Assembly: GCF_022662105.1 (NCBI RefSeq)
Contig: NZ_JAKMCP010000001.1
Coordinates: forward strand, 434,001 to 498,000
DNA from: Aestuariivivens sediminis
GTDB lineage: Bacteria; Bacteroidota; Bacteroidia; Flavobacteriales; Flavobacteriaceae
DNA: 64,000 nt
Direction: 5' to 3'
Under the pieces are notes generated by a model. The model was not told the origin of the DNA, searched no databases, and saw only the letters and a list, made by a program, of their open reading frames with translations. Below, one piece after another: positions 33,860 to 64,000 of this stretch. Position numbers and translations under genes: made by a program. Each line of letters starts with the position of its first letter. The first letter of the stretch is position 1.

Positions 33860-33944
33860 AGCTCCAGTTTCTAATGTCTTAAAAGGGAGTGTGCTTCAAA
33901 AAGCATGCTCCCTTTTCCCATATCGAACAGCAGAAAAATTCCCC

Positions 33945-34082
33945 GCGCAGAAAATGAAAATCATTGCTTAGAAAAAAAAATTCCTTGCTTAGAAAAAAAA
34001 ATTCTTTGCCTAGAAAATGGACATTTCCTAGGCAGAAAAAAAATTTTTATGCGCAGAAAAGGAGGACCGCCTGCGCAGAAAA
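33945..34082 (+). repeat. 21-bp periodic repeat with phased A-tracts
   Basis: Seven copies of GCNNAGAAAA (variants GCGCAGAAAA, GCTTAGAAAA, GCCTAGAAAA; the fifth is AGGCAGAAAA) follow one another. The AGAAAA cores start at 33949, 33970, 33991, 34012, 34034, 34055 and 34077, a spacing of 21 or 22 bp, which is two helical turns. A-tracts of 4-9 bases therefore face the same side of the helix, so the DNA should be intrinsically curved. The array begins about 85 bp after the HU stop codon. Because 21 is a multiple of three, chance reading frames cross it; these are not genes. Confidence 0.75.
34007..34034. repeat. Hairpin within the 21-bp array
   Basis: TGCCTAG pairs with CTAGGCA, and beyond one A/C mismatch AAATG pairs with CATTT, forming a nearly perfect 28-nt stem-loop around a two-base loop. 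It joins array units 4 and 5. Confidence 0.65.
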
Positions 34083-55242: not shown

Positions 55243-58200
55243 TTAAATTTTTAAGTTGATACCAAAGGTTACAGTTTTGTAAAGTGGTGCATTTCTGTTA
55301 CTTTGACTACCTCTTGCACCCTCAGGGTCAAAATATTGTAATCCTGTAAAAGTGAATAAGTTCTGCGCTCCTAAGAATACACGCAATTTGGATATATTAA
55401 TTTTATCAAGAGCATCTTTCGGTAGCGAGTATCCTAATTCTAAAGATTTTACTCTTAGGTAGGAAACATCCTGAATATAGAATGACGAAACCCGCTCATT
55501 ACCGATGCCTCCAACTCTGGGTAAATTGGTACTGGGGCTTTCCGGCGTCCAGCGATTGATCCAATAGGTCAGAACATTACTTCGGTTATCAGGCATTGGC
55601 AAATTACCATTACCCATCAAGAGGCGGTCTACACCACTGACGCCCTGAAGTAAGACATTAAGATCAAACCCTTTGTATGCTATGGATCCGTTGAAATTTA
55701 CCAACAGGTCCGGATTAGGATTACCAATGATTGTTCTGTCATCTTGATCTACCACACCGTCAGGAACACCTTCAGGACCGGAGACATCAGCATACTTCAG
55801 ATCACCCGGAGCCGTGTTCTGATTTCCGAATTGTGTTGGCGAATTGGCTATTTCCTCTAAACTTTGGAATACACCAATGGCCTTATATCCAAAATAAGAT
55901 CTAAAAGGTACGCCTATCCTGATAATATCATTACCAGAAATAGTTTCTTCTCCACCGTCACCTAGTCCGGTAACCTCATTTTTCAAGAACTTGGTCATAT
56001 TACCGCCAACACTAAAACTGGCCTCTCCGATGTTTCCTCTGTAATTTAAGCTAATTTCCAACCCTTCATTCACCATAGAGGCAGCATTTTGTGCGCCTAG
56101 ATTGGTAACCCCAAGGGTGTTTGGAACCGGGAAATTCGTATAAAGGATATCTCTGCTGTCCCGTTTAAAATAATCGGCTACGAGCTCAATTTTATTATTC
56201 AAAAGGCTGAAGTCTAAACCGATATCCAATTGCTCGGTCTCTTCCCATCTGATGGTTGCGTTCGCCAAACTGGTTATGGCCAATCCTACAACGCTTGTAT
56301 CGTCACCTAATACATAATCTTGATTTGGGTTATAGGTTTGTTCCCAAATGTTTCTGCCAATTCTGTCGTTACCCGTAATACCCCAACTCGCTCTAAGTTT
56401 CAAGTTGCTAATCGCATCAACGTCTTTTAAGAAATTCTCCTGGGATAGTCTCCAAGCGGCAGAAGCTGATGGGAAATTACCATAGGCGTTATCCGGTCCA
56501 AATCGTGATGACCCGTCGCGTCTTAAATTAAATTCAAAAAGGTATTTTTCTTTGTAGTTGTATTGTAATCTTCCAAAAAAAGATTGCCAGGTATCCACAT
56601 AAGCGCCCCCGGATACAGCAGGGTCTAAAATACCGCCACCGTTGAATTCTTCAATATTATCCGTTGGAAAACCACTTAAAGTGCCACTGAAACCGTCATT
56701 TTTGATGTAGGTCGCGGAATACCCGAATAAGGCTCCAAAATTATGCGCCTTGTTAAAGGTTTTATTATACCTTAAGATATTCTCTGTTAATAAGGTATAC
56801 TCAAAGTTTGTTGAGTTATCTAAATTGTTGTTAAGTCCTTGGATCACGATATCACCATCATAGTTAAGTTGCAATTGACGTGGACTGAAATCTGAGGTGT
56901 TTCTATAGATGATGTTCGCACTTCCACTTGTTTCGAAGCTTAGGTTCTTCCATAGATTAATTGTGGCTCCTATTCTTTGACTGATATTGATATTGTCATT
57001 TTCATAATTTCCTAAAAAACCACGTCTTAAAGCATTTGTAGTTGGCAGGGAAGCGTTAGTGTTCATCCAGGCGCCATCGGCAACACCATAGTCTCCGTTA
57101 CTGTAAAATAATGGAATGGTCGGGGATGACCTTTGGAATTGGAATATAATACCATTATCGCCACTAAAGGCATTTTGGCCACCGGTTGGCCCTTCATTAT
57201 GACTCCAAAAGGCATTGGTAACGCTACTTATTTTAAACCAGTCTTTAACTTTCGAATTGATATTGAAGCTTAAATTATAGCGTTCATATTTAAATTTACT
57301 TTTTACAATAGCGTCTTGACCTAAATAACCAAGAGACACGCGGTAGGTTGACTTTTTGCTACCCCCAGAGAACGACAGGTTATGATTCTGTATGGATGCC
57401 GTTCTTAATACGGCATCTGCCCAATCGGTATCGGCAAAATAATTTGGTGAAGAACCTGTTCGAATAGCCTCTAATTGCTCTTCCGTATATCGCGGTAAAA
57501 AACCGGGGCCATCCTCATTTCTGAATTTTTCATTCATTAAGATGGCGTAATCATAAGACCCTAAAAAATCGGGTTTAACAGTGGCGTCCTGAACCCCATA
57601 GTAGCTATTGTAGCTTATTTCAAATTTATCCGCTTCACCTTTACGCGTCGTCACTAAAACAACACCATTTGCAGCACGCGATCCATAAATAGAAAGTGCC
57701 GCTGCATCTTTAAGAACCGTGATACTTTCAATATCTGAGGGTGCTAAGCTGTTAAAGGCCGCAAGATCGTCATACTGGATGTTATCAATCACTACCAGAG
57801 GTGCTTGGCCTCCAAAGGTACCAATACCTCGAATGGTAATACTGGATCCATCGGCACCGGGATTACCGGAAGTTTGTGTTAATTGCACTCCTGAAAATCG
57901 ACCGTATAAAAGTTGCCCGGCATTCGTAACCGGCTGATTGACTTCATCCTTAAAGGTTACCATTTCTACTGAACCTGTTAAGTTGACCTTCTTTTGGGTA
58001 CCATATCCCACTACAACAACTTCATCAAGAGCTGCAATATCTTCTTGTAATACAATGTTAATTGTGGTTTGATTGCTTACCGGTATTTCCTTGGTAAGAT
58101 ATCCAATATAAGAAACCACCAGTACAGCATTATTAGAAACGGTCAAGGCGTAATTCCCATCAAAATCGGTCTGGGCTCCATTTGAAGTTCCTTTTTCAAT

Positions 58201-58323
58201 AATGTTTGCACCGGCAAGCGGAAAACCACTTTCATCTGTTACCATTCCGGAGATGGCATTTTGAGAAAATGCCATGGGTCCAAGTGGAATCAGCAACAGA
58301 ACGTAAATGAGTAATGTTTTCAT
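55243..58323 (-). CDS. susC: SusC-type TonB-dependent outer-membrane transporter
   Basis: A 1026-residue SusC/RagA transporter. The signal peptide (to AFS|Q, ~20) is followed by the carboxypeptidase D-like domain (ISGMVTDESGFPLAGANIIE, YIGYLTKEI), the LDEVVVVGYGTQKK motif (~100-112) and the plug (YGRFSGVQLTQTSGNPGA, ITIRGIGT, VLKDAAALSIYGSRAANGV). The barrel ends TFGINLKI. It imports oligosaccharides using TonB energy and heads the operon SusC-SusD-GH128-CBM protein, perhaps running on to the sulfatase and beta-helix genes. Upstream lies the tandem palindromic array and then the hybrid two-component gene, which in this phylum often controls the adjacent SusCD operon. The ATG at 58323 is the only sensible start. 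Confidence 0.95.
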   Translation of the reverse strand: MKTLLIYVLLLIPLGPMAFSQNAISGMVTDESGFPLAGANIIEKGTSNGAQTDFDGNYALTVSNNAVLVVSYIGYLTKEIPVSNQTTINIVLQEDIAALDEVVVVGYGTQKKVNLTGSVEMVTFKDEVNQPVTNAGQLLYGRFSGVQLTQTSGNPGADGSSITIRGIGTFGGQAPLVVIDNIQYDDLAAFNSLAPSDIESITVLKDAAALSIYGSRAANGVVLVTTRKGEADKFEISYNSYYGVQDATVKPDFLGSYDYAILMNEKFRNEDGPGFLPRYTEEQLEAIRTGSSPNYFADTDWADAVLRTASIQNHNLSFSGGSKKSTYRVSLGYLGQDAIVKSKFKYERYNLSFNINSKVKDWFKISSVTNAFWSHNEGPTGGQNAFSGDNGIIFQFQRSSPTIPLFYSNGDYGVADGAWMNTNASLPTTNALRRGFLGNYENDNINISQRIGATINLWKNLSFETSGSANIIYRNTSDFSPRQLQLNYDGDIVIQGLNNNLDNSTNFEYTLLTENILRYNKTFNKAHNFGALFGYSATYIKNDGFSGTLSGFPTDNIEEFNGGGILDPAVSGGAYVDTWQSFFGRLQYNYKEKYLFEFNLRRDGSSRFGPDNAYGNFPSASAAWRLSQENFLKDVDAISNLKLRASWGITGNDRIGRNIWEQTYNPNQDYVLGDDTSVVGLAITSLANATIRWEETEQLDIGLDFSLLNNKIELVADYFKRDSRDILYTNFPVPNTLGVTNLGAQNAASMVNEGLEISLNYRGNIGEASFSVGGNMTKFLKNEVTGLGDGGEETISGNDIIRIGVPFRSYFGYKAIGVFQSLEEIANSPTQFGNQNTAPGDLKYADVSGPEGVPDGVVDQDDRTIIGNPNPDLLVNFNGSIAYKGFDLNVLLQGVSGVDRLLMGNGNLPMPDNRSNVLTYWINRWTPESPSTNLPRVGGIGNERVSSFYIQDVSYLRVKSLELGYSLPKDALDKINISKLRVFLGAQNLFTFTGLQYFDPEGARGSQSNRNAPLYKTVTFGINLKI

Positions 58324-58501
58324 AAATTTTAAGCGTTAGTTATTAGTTTGAGTTATAATTTTACGAGGACATTTAGCCTCTTTACAAAGATGTAACCATT
58401 TGAAATGAATCGGCAGGTGATATAATTCAATTAGGGGTTTAAATAATGCAATCCCAGTGAAAATGGCCTTTAATAGCACCTGGTTGAATCTATGAGTTGC
58501 T

Positions 58502-60262
58502 TGTCACTTCGAGCGGATTTATGGAACGCAGTGAAACACATTTGTACTTCGACTGCGCTCAGTAGGACTATCGAGAAGCATACCAAAACCAAAGTTCTCG
58601 ATACGATTTTTTTGGCAAAAAATCACTCGACCTGACAGTCCATTACCTTGAATTAAATAACAACCCCTATGTCACTTCGAGTGAATTTGTGGAACGCAGT
58701 GGAACAAATTTGTATCGAGAAGCATTCCGGACCATAGTTCTCGATACGATTTTTTTGGCAAAAAAAAACTCGAACTGACAATACAGCACGTTGTATTAAA
58801 TAACAACCCCTATGTCACTTCGAGTGGATTTATGGAATGAAATGAAATAAATTTGTATCGAGAAGCATTCCGGACCATAGTTCTCGATACGATTTTTTTG
58901 GCAAAAAATCACTCGAACTGACAATACATCCAATACCTTAATACAGTAACGCCTTTGTCACTTCGAGTGGATTTATGGAATGAAATGAAATAAATTTGTA
59001 TCGAGAAGCATTCCGGACCATAGTTCTCGATACGATTTTTTTGGCAAAAAATCACTCGAACTGACAATCCATTACCTTGAATTAAATAACAACCCCTATG
59101 TCACTTCGAGTGAATTTGTGGAACGCAGTGGAACAAATTTGTATCGAGAAGCATTCCGGACCATAGTTCTCGATACGATTTTTTTGGCAAAAAATCACTC
59201 GAACTGACAGTCCATTACCTTGAATTAAATAATAACCCCTATGTCACTTCGAGTGAATTTGTGGAACGCAGTGGAACAAATTTGTATCGAGAAGCATTCC
59301 GGACCATAGTTCTCGATACGATTTTTTTGGCAAAAAATCACTCGAACTGACAATCCATCCAATACCCTAATACAGTAACTCCTTTGTCACTTCGGGTGAA
59401 TTTGTGGAACGCAGTGGAACACATTTTTATCGAGAAGCATCCCAAAACAATAGTTCTCGATACGATTTTTTTGGCAAAAAATCACTCGAACTGACAATCC
59501 ATCCAATACCCTAATACAGTAACTCCTTTGTCTCTTCGAGTGGATTTGTGAAACGCAGTGGAACACATTTTTATCGAGAAGCATTCCGGACCATAGTTCT
59601 CGATACGATTTTTTTGGCAAAAAAAAACTCGACCTGACAATACAGCACGTTGTATTAAATAACAACCCCTATGTCACTTCGAGTGAATTTGTGGAACGCA
59701 GTGGAACACATTTTTATCGAGAAGGGTCCCCGGACCATAGTTCTCGATACGATTTTTTTGGCAAAAAATCACTCGAACTGACAGTCCATTACCTTGAATT
59801 AAATAACAACCCCTATGTCACTTCGAGTGAATTTGTGGAACGCAGTGGAACACATTTTTATCGAGAAGCATTCCAAAACAATAGTTCTCGATACGATTTT
59901 TTTGGCAAAAAATCACTCGAACTGACAATCCATCCAATACCCTAATACAGTAACTCCTTTGTCTCTTCGAGTGAATTTGTGAAACGCAGTGGAACACATT
60001 TTTATCGAGAAGCATCCCAAAACAATAGTTCTCGATACGATTTTTTTGGCAAAAAATCACTCGAACTGACAATCCATCCAATACCCTAATACAGTAACTC
60101 CTTTGTCTCTTCGAGTGAATTTGTGAAACGCAGTGGAACAAATTTTTATCGAGAAGCATTCCCAGACCATAGTTCTCGATACGATTTTTTTGGCAAAAAA
60201 TCACTCGAACTGACAATACATCCAATACCCTAATACAGTAACGCCTTTGTATCGAGAAGCGT
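58502..60262. repeat. Tandem array of twelve cloverleaf-like palindromic elements
   Basis: Twelve units of 111-112 bp (the first is 136 bp through an insertion) start at 58502, 58670, 58813, 58956, 59099, 59242, 59385, 59529, 59672, 59816, 59960 and 60104; a half unit (60248-60262) abuts the stop codon of the regulator gene. Linkers are 32 bp (one is 31). In a typical unit TGTCACTTCGAGTGA pairs with TCACTCGAACTGACA (14 of 15 positions), enclosing three hairpins: AATTTGT/ACAAATT, GTATCGAGAA/TTCTCGATAC and GATTTTTT/AAAAAATC. The linkers fall into only three families, in the order A B C A A C C B A C C C. Units 3 and 4 change ATTTGT/ACAAAT to ATTTAT/ATAAAT, keeping the pairing. It resembles REP/BIME arrays. 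Confidence 0.85.
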
Positions 60263-60263
60263 T

Positions 60264-63200
60264 TTAGGTATTGATAAGTTCCTTATATTTTGAAGGCACA
60301 CAATTGAACTGTTTTTTGAAGGAGTTTTTAAAGTACTTGTAATCATTAAATCCGACATCATAGGCAATTTGATTTAAGTTCAAATCTGTCGATAAAATAA
60401 GTTGTGCCGATTTTTTTAAGCGAATGGAACGGATAAAGGCCGTTAATGACAACCCGGTTAACGATTTTATTTTTCGGTATAAGGTCGATTGGCTCATATA
60501 CAAGGCATCAACCAAATCATCAATCCCAAAATTAGGGTTGTCCAAATTATTTTCTACCAATAAAATAGCCTTATGGATAAAGGTGTTTTCCGTATCGGCA
60601 TCATGTTCTATGGATGCCGCTGTAGGTTCAAAACGCACTTTGTTTACGAAATGGGCTCTTAATTTTTCCCTGTTTTCCAATAAACTTTCAATCCTCGCTT
60701 TAATGACTTTGGCATTAAAAGGTTTACTCACGTAATCATCGGCCCCGGTTTTAAGGCCTTCTATTTCGAAAACCGTAGAGGTTCTGGCCGTTAATAAAAT
60801 AATAGGGATGTGTGAGGTCGTGATTTGAGATTTCAATTCTTTACACAGGGTGATCCCATCCTTTCCCGGCATCATGATATCGCTAATGATTAGATCCGGT
60901 ATTTCTGAGGATGCTTTTTGATACCCCATGTCACCGTTATCGGCTTGAAGTACATTATACGTATCTGCCAGTATATCCTTTAAATAGGTCAGGATATCGG
61001 GATTGTCATCGATAACAAGAACGGTGTGTTCATTGGCCTTTAGACTCAGGTTTTCCACATTTTCGGGTATCTCGAAGGTGTTATACCCTTTAATATTATC
61101 GGAAGTCATAAAATTTTCATCCACAGCACCCTTGTATTGTTTGGGATCCATGGTCAATGTAATCGTAAATGTAGTCCCTTCATTGGGCTTACTTTTTACC
61201 GAAATACTGCCGTGGTGCAACTCAATGATCTTTTTGGAAAAGGACAGACCAATTCCACTCCCTATCATTCTTGCCGTATTGGCCGATTTGATTTGGAAAA
61301 ACCGATCGAATATATTTTCCATATCTTCAGCCTGCATCCCAATACCGGTATCCGCTATGGATATAATACAATACTCGGAATCCTGATCTATTTGCATCTC
61401 AATGGTATCGCCAGAATTCGTGTACTTTATGGCATTGGATAAAATATTGCACAACACAATTTCCATCTTGTTTCTATCAAATGGAAACATAATGTCGTCA
61501 TGGTTCGACTGAAACTTATAGGTTACCCGTTTTGCCTTAGCGGCTTCCTTAAAGTACAAAAAGACCTCTCTGGAAAATCGGACAAAATTCCCCTGGGAAA
61601 CACTTAGTTTAAGTAATCCGTGATCGGCTTTTCTAAAATCCAAAAGCTGATTAATAAGGTTGAGCAGCCGATTGGTGTTCTTGTCAATGTAATGCAGATT
61701 TTTTTTGACTTTGGCAGGCAGATGCTCTATATCCAATAATTCTTTAATGGGACCTATAATTAAGGACAAGGGGCTTCGAAACTCATGTGAGATATTGGTG
61801 AAAAAGTTTAGTTTGGCCTCGGTAAGTTCCATGTCCTTTTGCTTGTCTATCCTCGCAATTTCCAGTTTATTCTGTAGCTTTAATTTGTAATTGTTGGAAC
61901 GTATTAAGTAAGTGGCTATGCCTCCAATAAGGAGCCCATAGATCACCAGGGCTAGAGTACTCAACCATGGTGAGCCCAGTAGGGTGATCTCCAGGGTCTT
62001 GGGATCGCTCCAATACTGGTTATCCCTGGAAGCAATAACTTTAAGGGTATACTTCCCGGGGGAAAGCCCGGCAAAATTAATTTCATTCCTATTCTGTAAA
62101 TCTATCCATTCATCCTGATAGCCCTCCAATACATATTTGTACTTAATATTGAGCTTACCCAAAAAATCGTTGGAAACAAATCTGGTGGAGAAAAAATCTT
62201 CCTTGTGTGTTAATTTTATATTCCTGGCATAATTAAAGTTTTTTTCCAAAATGGTATGACCCGGTTTATATTGAATGATCTCATTATTGACCCTCAAGGT
62301 TGTAAAGATGATTTCCGGAACGGTAATAAAATCCTTGATGTTTCCGGGATTAAAAAACGTGACATTATCGATTCCGCCAAAGTAGATGATTTCATTTTTG
62401 TAATTAAAAAAACTTTTATTGTTAAAGGACGTCGAACGCACACCATTGATGTCTCCATAACTTATAATGATCTTATCATAGGGATTATATCTTACAATCT
62501 CTGTATGTGTACTCAACCATAAATTAGATTTCTCATCAAAAGTCAGTGAACAAATAAAATCACTATTCAGACCCTCATTTTTGGTAATGACATCCTCAAT
62601 AATAAGATTGTTCCCGTTGTAGTTCAGTTTGATCAATCCGTTAGGCGTAGCCAACCAAATGGTACTTCCCTTGATCTCTGTTGCATTAATAATGACACTG
62701 GGTAATTTCCCATCTAAAATTTGGGATTGATGGATGAAGGTTTTTTTATTTCTATCGAACAAGTGTAAACCGTTATAGCTGCTTACCCAAACATTGCCAT
62801 AATCGTCCTTTTTAATTGAGGTTATCCTGTCGCTTTCAATTTTGTTTTCATTCTGAAGTCTTTCAGAATATATCGTATAGTTGCCAACATCATCCAACTG
62901 ATCTAAATCCACAATGGCCAGCCCTAATTGCTGTGAACCGATATAAAGCGTGTTCTCTTCAATTAAAAACGAAGTAACCTTGTTAAACCTGACCTTGGAT
63001 TTAAATAGGATTGTCCCGGATGCCAGATCGAAAATGTAAAACCCATCGGCAGTACCGATATATAACTTATTCTGGTGTTCATACAGGACATTGACCTTTA
63101 CCACTCCTATGTCCTCGATTAGGGACAAATCCGAGAAACTTTTTCCATAATAAAGTCCGTAAAAGGTTCCTACAAAAAGGGTACTTTCCGATTTATAAAT

Positions 63201-63995
63201 ACTCGTGCAGTTTAAATAGCTCTTTAAGTTTTTATCTTTTATGAATTTATCGGCGTTTTCAAACCCATTGCCTTCCATTAATTTCACCACACCTCCATTG
63301 GCCGTGGCCAACCAGGTCACGTTATTTTTATCGTGATGTATACTTAAAATGGTATTGTAATTGGCGCTTATTTTATCTGAACTACTGGAAATCAGATCTA
63401 TTTTACTGAATCTGGTCAAATTTTCATTACTCCTGTAAACGCCTTGACCCCAGGTACCTATCCATAATCTGTTGTATCGGTCCAAAGATAATTTCCTTGA
63501 GAAATTACTACTCACCTGTGTTTCCAACTCATCAATCGACCCTGTATTGTAATTATAACTGTAGAGTTTAGATTCGGCACCGGATACCCCAATCCAAACC
63601 TTATTACGACTTTTATCTGAAAGTAAATCGGTGACTTGCCTTCTTAAATTGTGGGATATGATATTTTGGCTCTCCCAGTCTAAAACATGTGCATTATTAC
63701 CACTACAAAACCACATATTATCGTTAAAGTCCCGTTCTATGCTATATATGGCCTGATAAAACTTATATTGCTTTATGAGAACCTCATGCTCAGGATCAAT
63801 GACAAAAACACCGTTTTGCCAGGTACCCACCCAAATGTGTCCATCTTTATCTTGTGAAATGGCCGTAATTCTCAAGTCACCCTCATTGGCCAGATCAATG
63901 ACATTATTATAATTCTTAATGTAGTTATTTTTAATATCCAGATAAGACAGCCCCCCGCTTTTGGTTCCTATCCATAAATTAGACGCCTTGTCCAT
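60264..63995 (-). CDS. Hybrid two-component system sensor/regulator (HTCS), 5' end outside window
   Basis: At least 1243 residues of a one-protein two-component system; the frame begins inside the first propeller blades and is open to the window edge, so the signal peptide and first blades are missing. Domains: periplasmic two-component-regulator propeller blades (~1-560, repeats such as NLWIGTKSGGL and HIWVGTWQNG), a Y_Y_Y domain (~580-670), one membrane helix (~680-698), histidine kinase with SHEFRSP (His near 736) and ATPase blocks (NAIKYTNSG, DTGIGM, GSGIGLSFSKK), a receiver with VIDDN and phospho-acceptor D in ISDIMMPGKDG (~1037), and a C-terminal AraC-type HTH (~1135-1243, FNDYKYFKNSFKKQF). 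It senses periplasmic oligosaccharides and activates PUL genes, probably the SusCD operon at 58323 just downstream. Confidence 0.93.
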   Translation of the reverse strand: MDKASNLWIGTKSGGLSYLDIKNNYIKNYNNVIDLANEGDLRITAISQDKDGHIWVGTWQNGVFVIDPEHEVLIKQYKFYQAIYSIERDFNDNMWFCSGNNAHVLDWESQNIISHNLRRQVTDLLSDKSRNKVWIGVSGAESKLYSYNYNTGSIDELETQVSSNFSRKLSLDRYNRLWIGTWGQGVYRSNENLTRFSKIDLISSSSDKISANYNTILSIHHDKNNVTWLATANGGVVKLMEGNGFENADKFIKDKNLKSYLNCTSIYKSESTLFVGTFYGLYYGKSFSDLSLIEDIGVVKVNVLYEHQNKLYIGTADGFYIFDLASGTILFKSKVRFNKVTSFLIEENTLYIGSQQLGLAIVDLDQLDDVGNYTIYSERLQNENKIESDRITSIKKDDYGNVWVSSYNGLHLFDRNKKTFIHQSQILDGKLPSVIINATEIKGSTIWLATPNGLIKLNYNGNNLIIEDVITKNEGLNSDFICSLTFDEKSNLWLSTHTEIVRYNPYDKIIISYGDINGVRSTSFNNKSFFNYKNEIIYFGGIDNVTFFNPGNIKDFITVPEIIFTTLRVNNEIIQYKPGHTILEKNFNYARNIKLTHKEDFFSTRFVSNDFLGKLNIKYKYVLEGYQDEWIDLQNRNEINFAGLSPGKYTLKVIASRDNQYWSDPKTLEITLLGSPWLSTLALVIYGLLIGGIATYLIRSNNYKLKLQNKLEIARIDKQKDMELTEAKLNFFTNISHEFRSPLSLIIGPIKELLDIEHLPAKVKKNLHYIDKNTNRLLNLINQLLDFRKADHGLLKLSVSQGNFVRFSREVFLYFKEAAKAKRVTYKFQSNHDDIMFPFDRNKMEIVLCNILSNAIKYTNSGDTIEMQIDQDSEYCIISIADTGIGMQAEDMENIFDRFFQIKSANTARMIGSGIGLSFSKKIIELHHGSISVKSKPNEGTTFTITLTMDPKQYKGAVDENFMTSDNIKGYNTFEIPENVENLSLKANEHTVLVIDDNPDILTYLKDILADTYNVLQADNGDMGYQKASSEIPDLIISDIMMPGKDGITLCKELKSQITTSHIPIILLTARTSTVFEIEGLKTGADDYVSKPFNAKVIKARIESLLENREKLRAHFVNKVRFEPTAASIEHDADTENTFIHKAILLVENNLDNPNFGIDDLVDALYMSQSTLYRKIKSLTGLSLTAFIRSIRLKKSAQLILSTDLNLNQIAYDVGFNDYKYFKNSFKKQFNCVPSKYKELINT

Positions 63996-64000
63996 AAACA

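Follow-up and report, generated by a model that had tools for sequence, protein, structure and literature searches.

The window, that is, the whole stretch of 64,000 nucleotides that was analyzed, contains a tandem array of cloverleaf units between two genes of the minus strand. The array lies downstream of a gene for a hybrid two-component system (HTCS) and upstream of a susC-like gene for a TonB receptor, in the gap to which the preliminary description of this DNA had assigned it. The leader of susC (58324 to about 58475), which the window genome shares in conserved form with its sister species G003, lies outside the array. The array itself (58503-60215) is composed of 12 near-identical units in head-to-tail orientation. 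The features of the region are as follows.

55243..58323, minus strand: susC-like TonB receptor gene, its leader conserved with G003 to about 58475
58503..58637, plus strand: unit 1, 135 bp, with an extra hairpin TTCGACTGCGCTCAG at 58548-58562
58638..58670, plus strand: linker 1 (family A, as are linkers 4, 5 and 9)
58671..58780, plus strand: unit 2
58781..58813, plus strand: linker 2 (family B; linker 8 is the same)
58814..58923, plus strand: unit 3, with the compensated hairpin-1 variant ATTTAT/ATAAAT
58957..59066, plus strand: unit 4, same sequence as unit 3
59100..59209, plus strand: unit 5
59243..59352, plus strand: unit 6
59353..59385, plus strand: linker 6 (family C, as are linkers 3, 7, 10, 11 and 12)
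59386..59496, plus strand: unit 7
59530..59639, plus strand: unit 8
59673..59783, plus strand: unit 9
59817..59927, plus strand: unit 10
59961..60071, plus strand: unit 11
60105..60215, plus strand: unit 12
60216..60248, plus strand: linker 12, the final 33-bp spacer, a near-twin of linker 3
60250..60260, plus strand: likely remnant TATCGAGAAGC of a 13th unit, adjoining the HTCS stop codon at 60264
60264..63998, minus strand: HTCS gene (propeller, Y_Y_Y, HisKA, HATPase, response regulator and AraC domains), outside the element and extending past the window

Tandem Repeats Finder detected a single array (58569-60222) with a period of 143, 11.5 copies and a score of 2292. Cutting the unit boundaries at GTC...TGACA gave 12 units, a copy number that could be wrong as the source is a draft assembly. 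Repeat finding, unit cutting and folding thus all confirmed the clock-regular array of twelve cloverleaf elements described before. Units 2-12 were 110 or 111 bp long. The lengths of 111-112 bp given earlier apply to these eleven units if a leading T is counted, but not to unit 1, which reaches 135 bp because of its extra hairpin. All 11 linkers between units were exactly 33 bp long. The earlier cut had given 32 bp, so the uniformity held, but none of the linkers is the single one of 31 bp that had been listed. The three sequence families of linkers (A, B and C) were found again. The divergence among units 2-12 was 7% on average and 14% at most, and that among the 11 linkers was 30% on average and 52% at most, while their length was invariant. 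Unit 12 was followed by a further stretch of 33 bp and then by the likely 13th-unit remnant of 11 bases. No Rfam family matched the window at the gathering score, or positions 58300-60300 at an E value of up to 1. Elsewhere in the window, at 33934-34017, there is a short tandem repeat of 21/42 bp (AGAAAAAAAAATTCATTGCTT).

Each unit folds into an outer stem of 13 pairs enclosing three hairpins; the three hairpins had been described correctly, while the stem had been given as 15 bp. Four units were folded as single-stranded DNA and reached z values of -3.50 to -4.95 relative to shuffled sequences, and the reverse strand of one of them reached -5.85. At most 1 in 200 shuffles folded as well as these units. 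One linker was also folded and showed no structure. The change from ATTTGT/ACAAAT to ATTTAT/ATAAAT, which had been taken as support for the fold, is present but confined to the neighboring, identical units 3 and 4, and unit 1 has its 5' half only. Covariation within the array amounted to one pair and was no better than chance, as 105 of 500 shuffles reached the same value.

The comparison of units across genomes, which the preliminary description had proposed, bore out the fold. When 17 elements of nine genomes were aligned, 94.9% of the cells were paired, and 12 pairs had changed on both sides, which was matched by none of 500 shuffles. When the partners were slid by 1-3 columns, the pairing was 37-49%. 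The outer-stem motif TTCGAGT/ACTCGAA and the middle-hairpin parts TATCGAGAA/TTCTCGATA were invariant in all 17 elements, whereas hairpins 1 and 3 had arms that varied, though in concert. The invariance of the outer stem is partly imposed, because the 17 sequences were chosen by their outer-stem letters; the letters of the middle hairpin were outside that choice, though they were part of the blastn query. The fold is maintained across genomes by paired changes.

In G003 the HTCS gene is 83% identical to that of the window, and the susC leader is retained; susC was assigned there by position, ORF length and leader only. The same site in G003 opens with a 3' half. A 32-bp linker joins this to the one full unit, and a second linker, of 33 bp, leads on to an outer stem that has collapsed. 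The first linker is closer to family A (20 of 32 positions) than to family C (11-12). The second and last linker agrees with family C at 23-25 of 33 positions, with family A at 17 and with linker 3 at 25. As families A and C are present in G003 too, both are older than the split of the species. The units within the window, in contrast, have been made alike.

The element is not restricted to this site. Matches by blastn were obtained in 15 of 60 genomes. A covariance model, for which at most 14 candidates were scored per genome, was positive in 98 of 249 genomes from the family; both counts include the genome of the window. Single units are common. The 17 blastn matches in the own genome comprised the 12 of the array and 5 dispersed ones, which matched the 3' part only. 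Four of these five dispersed relatives had the same plan by eye, some of them with inserts, and L013 was cut short. At L015 and L016 the dispersed cloverleafs are interrupted by GCCTGCC/GGCAGG palindromes.

The complete form of the element carries a gene for a GIY-YIG nuclease of about 97 amino acids in the loop of the middle hairpin. Its plan is [GTCAnTTCGAGT - hairpin 1 - TATCGAGAA] nuclease [TTCTCGATA - hairpin 3 - ACTCGAAnTGAC]. A GIY-YIG ORF was found in this loop in one array unit each of G164 and G029. The nuclease was embedded in G016 and G009 too, and likewise in G025, where the unit had no right half of its own; in G053 the gene lay between units. In the congener G002 one array with 30-bp spacers contained two nuclease-bearing units together with ORF-less units, and the left half of the nuclease-bearing element had an extra hairpin like unit 1 of the window. 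Two of the embedded proteins were assigned to GIY-YIG by Pfam with 60-63 bits, and the closest solved structures by sequence were the UPF0213 proteins PDB 1zg2 (E value of 4e-17) and 1ywl (1e-11). The units of the window contained no nuclease ORF, and no GIY-YIG-like motif was present in any frame of the array; with 110-135 bp they are too short to hold a gene for 97 amino acids. The window array is an ORF-less form of this element; what is new is the nuclease gene that the element carries elsewhere in its middle hairpin.

The linkage between nuclease and element was determined from the side of the protein. Contigs of 84,980 species, each represented by a single genome, were scanned with an alignment of six nuclease proteins, and not with the repeat, so that the loci were not chosen by the element. 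At least 465 nuclease loci were confirmed, and the best 80 of them were taken. Among these best 80, half-elements lay within 300 bases of the nuclease on at least one side at 73 loci and on both sides at 52; a right half only was present at 13, a left half only at 8, and neither at 7. A strict two-motif pattern was used, by which 28 of the 80 lacked one or both halves. Six of the seven loci with neither half had a short repeat instead, and L211 had matches to the model on both sides. Reversed flanks gave 0 of 80, and 24 of 30 Y1_Tnp loci, used as a further control, gave 0 of 24.

The short repeat, TCGAGnGnAGTCGA / TTCGACTCCGCTCAG, is common in the flavobacterial group. It was found beside a sister GIY-YIG group at L240-L243, L245, L246, L270, L271, L275, L278, L284-L286, L289, L291 and L299. 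The match between nuclease group and repeat type was assessed at 30 loci, which include 4 from the query alignment (L272, L273, L277 and L287) and whose genomes may overlap with those of the 80. Nucleases with at least 150 bits (157-183) had cloverleaf halves in 20 of 20 cases, 15 of them on both sides, and the short repeat in 1 of 20. Below 150 bits the short repeat was present at 10 of 10 loci and a cloverleaf half at 1 of 10. Reversed flanks of the 30 loci gave no match (0/30). Two nuclease groups pair with two repeat types.

The same linkage was seen when whole genomes were compared. Among the 249 genomes the element was present in 33 of the 36 with a close nuclease (E value of 1e-42 or better) and in 65 of the 213 others; the Fisher tests treat genomes as independent and thus ignore kinship. 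G064, G127 and G133 had a close nuclease and no match to the model, yet halves were seen at the nuclease. Thirty Pfam GIY-YIG loci, those with the best scores in the 60 genomes, were fetched as well; 25 of them were without a clear element nearby, including L165 with a single half, and the link therefore belongs to one group. As the query nucleases came from inside or beside arrays, the linkage holds for that group and not for GIY-YIG proteins generally.

A close nuclease was absent from the own genome, which is one of 37 among the 98 element genomes that gave no nuclease match at an E value of 1e-22. Its best nuclease scored 78 bits, compared with 157-183 bits for close members and 180 bits for that of G002, a protein of 98 amino acids (L253:1955-2251). 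The window array would therefore be a relic, or it is waiting for a nuclease to act in trans. Relatives of the G002 nuclease occurred in 24 phage and 45 plasmid records, all with less than 60% identity, and so there was no sign of recent carriage there. Copies of a different repeat, CTGCCTGCCTCACCGGCAGG, stand on either side of another small GIY-YIG gene at a contig end of the own genome (C8, L154:1-335); this may be a third nuclease-repeat pair. Another frame of the own genome (C5, L255:1293-2588) has 431 amino acids, with a GIY-YIG domain first and then, by eye, a GHMP-kinase-type part. Long frames of about 420-460 amino acids also occurred at GIY-YIG matches in several relatives.

Tandem junctions were present at 57 of the 80 nuclease loci (the best of at least 465), with two or more at 43. 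At these multi-junction loci the median spread of spacer length within a locus was 1.2 nt, compared with 9.4 nt after permutation (lowest value 6.0), and 21 of the 43 held the spacer within 2 nt. Between loci the spacers ranged from 8 to 78 nt, the limit of measurement being 80. As spacers are near-constant within many loci and differ between them, the 33-bp clock most simply reflects the founding duplication rather than any rule common to all loci. In one genus, G016 and G269 both had 14-bp spacers (9/9 and 8/9) beside the same lyase gene. Pattern matching counted nine complete units for G016 and, for G269, seven and three. The gene of an F5/8 type C protein (L124:3754-5325) separates two arrays of G269 at a position where G016 has only one.

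Four other explanations of the array were considered. The preliminary description suggested that it may insulate transcripts; on this view the array would act in cis, as RNA or as DNA, to regulate or insulate the genes on its two sides, HTCS and susC. It occupies the gap between two codirectional genes, the unit tested folds strongly on both strands, and promoter-like matches were in excess (19 against 6.3 in shuffles), mostly at two sites recurring with the period. However, G003 has the same genes with only one full unit and two remnants between them, so that a conserved HTCS/SusC switch is unlikely, and a copy number free to change between species weakens the regulatory idea. In addition, the conserved susC leader is outside the array, arrays in three other genomes adjoin unrelated genes (for an aromatic amino-acid lyase, a Clp-type AAA protein, a methyltransferase and DctP), no terminator-like site was present in the window array, and the orientation of neighboring genes was nothing special at 65 nuclease arrays (p 0.16 and 0.51). 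A regulator or insulator is therefore a very improbable explanation; SusCD control probably does not need the array, and its setting beside HTCS/SusC is probably incidental. Another reading is a MITE in which the cloverleaf is only cargo, and which moves by means of a transposase that acts on its terminal repeats. In G235 (L256-L269) 13 of 14 dispersed copies lay within a unit of about 180 bp with ACCCGTTGTGCATTTTG ends, as in a terminal-inverted-repeat MITE, and 6 of these 13 had exact target duplications of 7-10 bp. Of six dispersed copies examined in the own genome, four (L127, L130, L131 and L135) had the end pair, and two had an exact duplication. The cloverleaf is therefore also cargo, some copies having been spread by another transposase. 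Both MITE ends were, however, present at only 3 of 30 loci from the covariance-model search, and none of ten own-genome matches to the CGTTGTGCATTTTG end, the only end sought, lay at the window array. As such terminal repeats are absent there, a MITE does not fit the window array; it would also leave the nuclease linkage unexplained, and we give it hardly any credence.

The tandemly grown REP-type element that had been proposed came nearest among the earlier options, since REP/RAYT repeats are short, palindromic and dispersed, with tandem growth, and the portions of PMC6006769 available describe a Bacteroidetes RAYT subclass, 2.6, with atypical structures. Y1_Tnp (PF01797), however, gave 0 matches in the own genome, in a search that was positive in 5 of 14 control genomes; Y1_Tnp was present in 21 of the 60 genomes. 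A motif scan of 30 Y1_Tnp loci fetched from relatives revealed no half and no unit, only scattered single motifs. With 110 bp and a GTCA foot, the element also lacks the foot GT[AG]G. The RAYT link is thus largely refuted, by the lack of Y1_Tnp in the own genome and of the element at the Y1_Tnp loci of relatives, and ordinary REP/RAYT repeats of the REPtron type grown in tandem are an extremely unlikely explanation. A passive REP expansion had been expected to show common single units without paired changes; single units are indeed common, but the paired changes across genomes are strong. The array may, alternatively, be a dense target zone of a domesticated host system of nuclease and repeat that cuts incoming single-stranded DNA and shapes transformation. 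The match of nuclease group and repeat type, the invariant core with free but paired arms, and the parallel of Ssn and NTS in Neisseria would be in keeping with such a role. On the other hand, the own genome and G003 keep repeats without a close nuclease, and G002 carries the gene twice in one array, which is more like a selfish element. By analogy with Neisseria this reading can be imagined, but it is unlikely.

We consider it likely that the array is an orphan that grew in tandem. Its units would be copies, without the ORF, of a palindromic element that, when complete, encodes a GIY-YIG nuclease in the loop of the middle hairpin. Directly established are the anatomy and fold of the element, the linkage of nuclease and element, the pairing of nuclease groups with repeat types, the locus-specific tandem spacers, the difference in copy number between species and the absence of a close nuclease here. 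The nuclease would recognize the folded single strand, present for example on the lagging-strand template, by its invariant TTCGAGT/TATCGAGAA core, and would cut there. Breaks at the element with repair, or slippage or unequal exchange, may then duplicate a unit together with its spacer and so produce the clock. ORF-less copies would be by-products that the nuclease can serve in trans. The window array would accordingly have grown from an ancestral short array beside HTCS and would now be either a relic, orphaned from its nuclease, or a target in trans. Unequal exchange between units is proposed as the reason why homogenized units stand beside old, shuffled linkers. The binding of a protein to the array, which had been suggested before, is plausible, the candidate being the GIY-YIG nuclease.

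More tentatively, and with rather less confidence than doubt, the element may represent a distinct class of mobile elements, built around a GIY-YIG nuclease of about 97 amino acids that is encoded in the apical loop of the very cloverleaf it recognizes. The nuclease would multiply both complete and ORF-less copies, locally as well as in trans, and would coevolve with its palindrome. Such a class would be the source of widespread flavobacterial intergenic repeats, of the long cloverleaf and the short TCGAGnGnAGTCGA types alike. The present data connect one specific small nuclease with intergenic repeats that are widespread in a large bacterial family and had no explanation, and they provide a candidate nuclease-substrate pair that is now open to biochemical testing. 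If the nuclease cuts the fold, it would be a second, independent solution to the role that RAYT has for REPs, and the group would be a source of structure-specific DNA cutters. For readers of genomes there is also a caution, as clock-like cloverleaf arrays beside regulators need not regulate.

The literature searched, which included few subscription papers, contained in its accessible text nothing tying GIY-YIG proteins to flavobacterial repeats, and a search by the letters of the repeats returned, in the same scope, other subjects only. The UPF0213 proteins 1zg2 and 1ywl are kin of the embedded protein by sequence, but were deposited as hypothetical proteins. In Neisseria, Ssn is a small GIY-YIG nuclease with a cognate repeat, NTS, dispersed in the genome. 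Ssn cuts incoming single-stranded DNA at NTS repeats and thereby shapes natural transformation. A GIY-YIG protein with cognate repeats around its gene would be the common trait, which applies to the element family and not to the own genome; the likeness is drawn from the Ssn system as generally described. The candidate target here differs, being a cloverleaf of 110 bp whose loop holds the gene and which often forms tandem arrays. The BrickBuilt MITE of Porphyromonas gingivalis is likewise a tandem repeat within a miniature element of a Bacteroidota genome, but it has 23-nt units without spacers, and the available portions of its description mention no nuclease (PMC4596501). The closest comparison is with REP/RAYT systems, which, in the accessible parts of the two sources, share palindromic intergenic repeats, ORF-less copies and a nuclease or transposase gene flanked by repeats (PMC6006769, PMC3733652). 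According to the same parts, REP hairpins have 20-40 bp (PMC3733652) and a GT[AG]G foot (PMC6006769), whereas the units of the window have 110-135 bp and GTCA or GTCT. The element, moreover, has three hairpins and a GIY-YIG instead of an HuH/Y1 protein, and the own genome has no Y1_Tnp. In its workings it resembles REP/RAYT, without belonging to that system.
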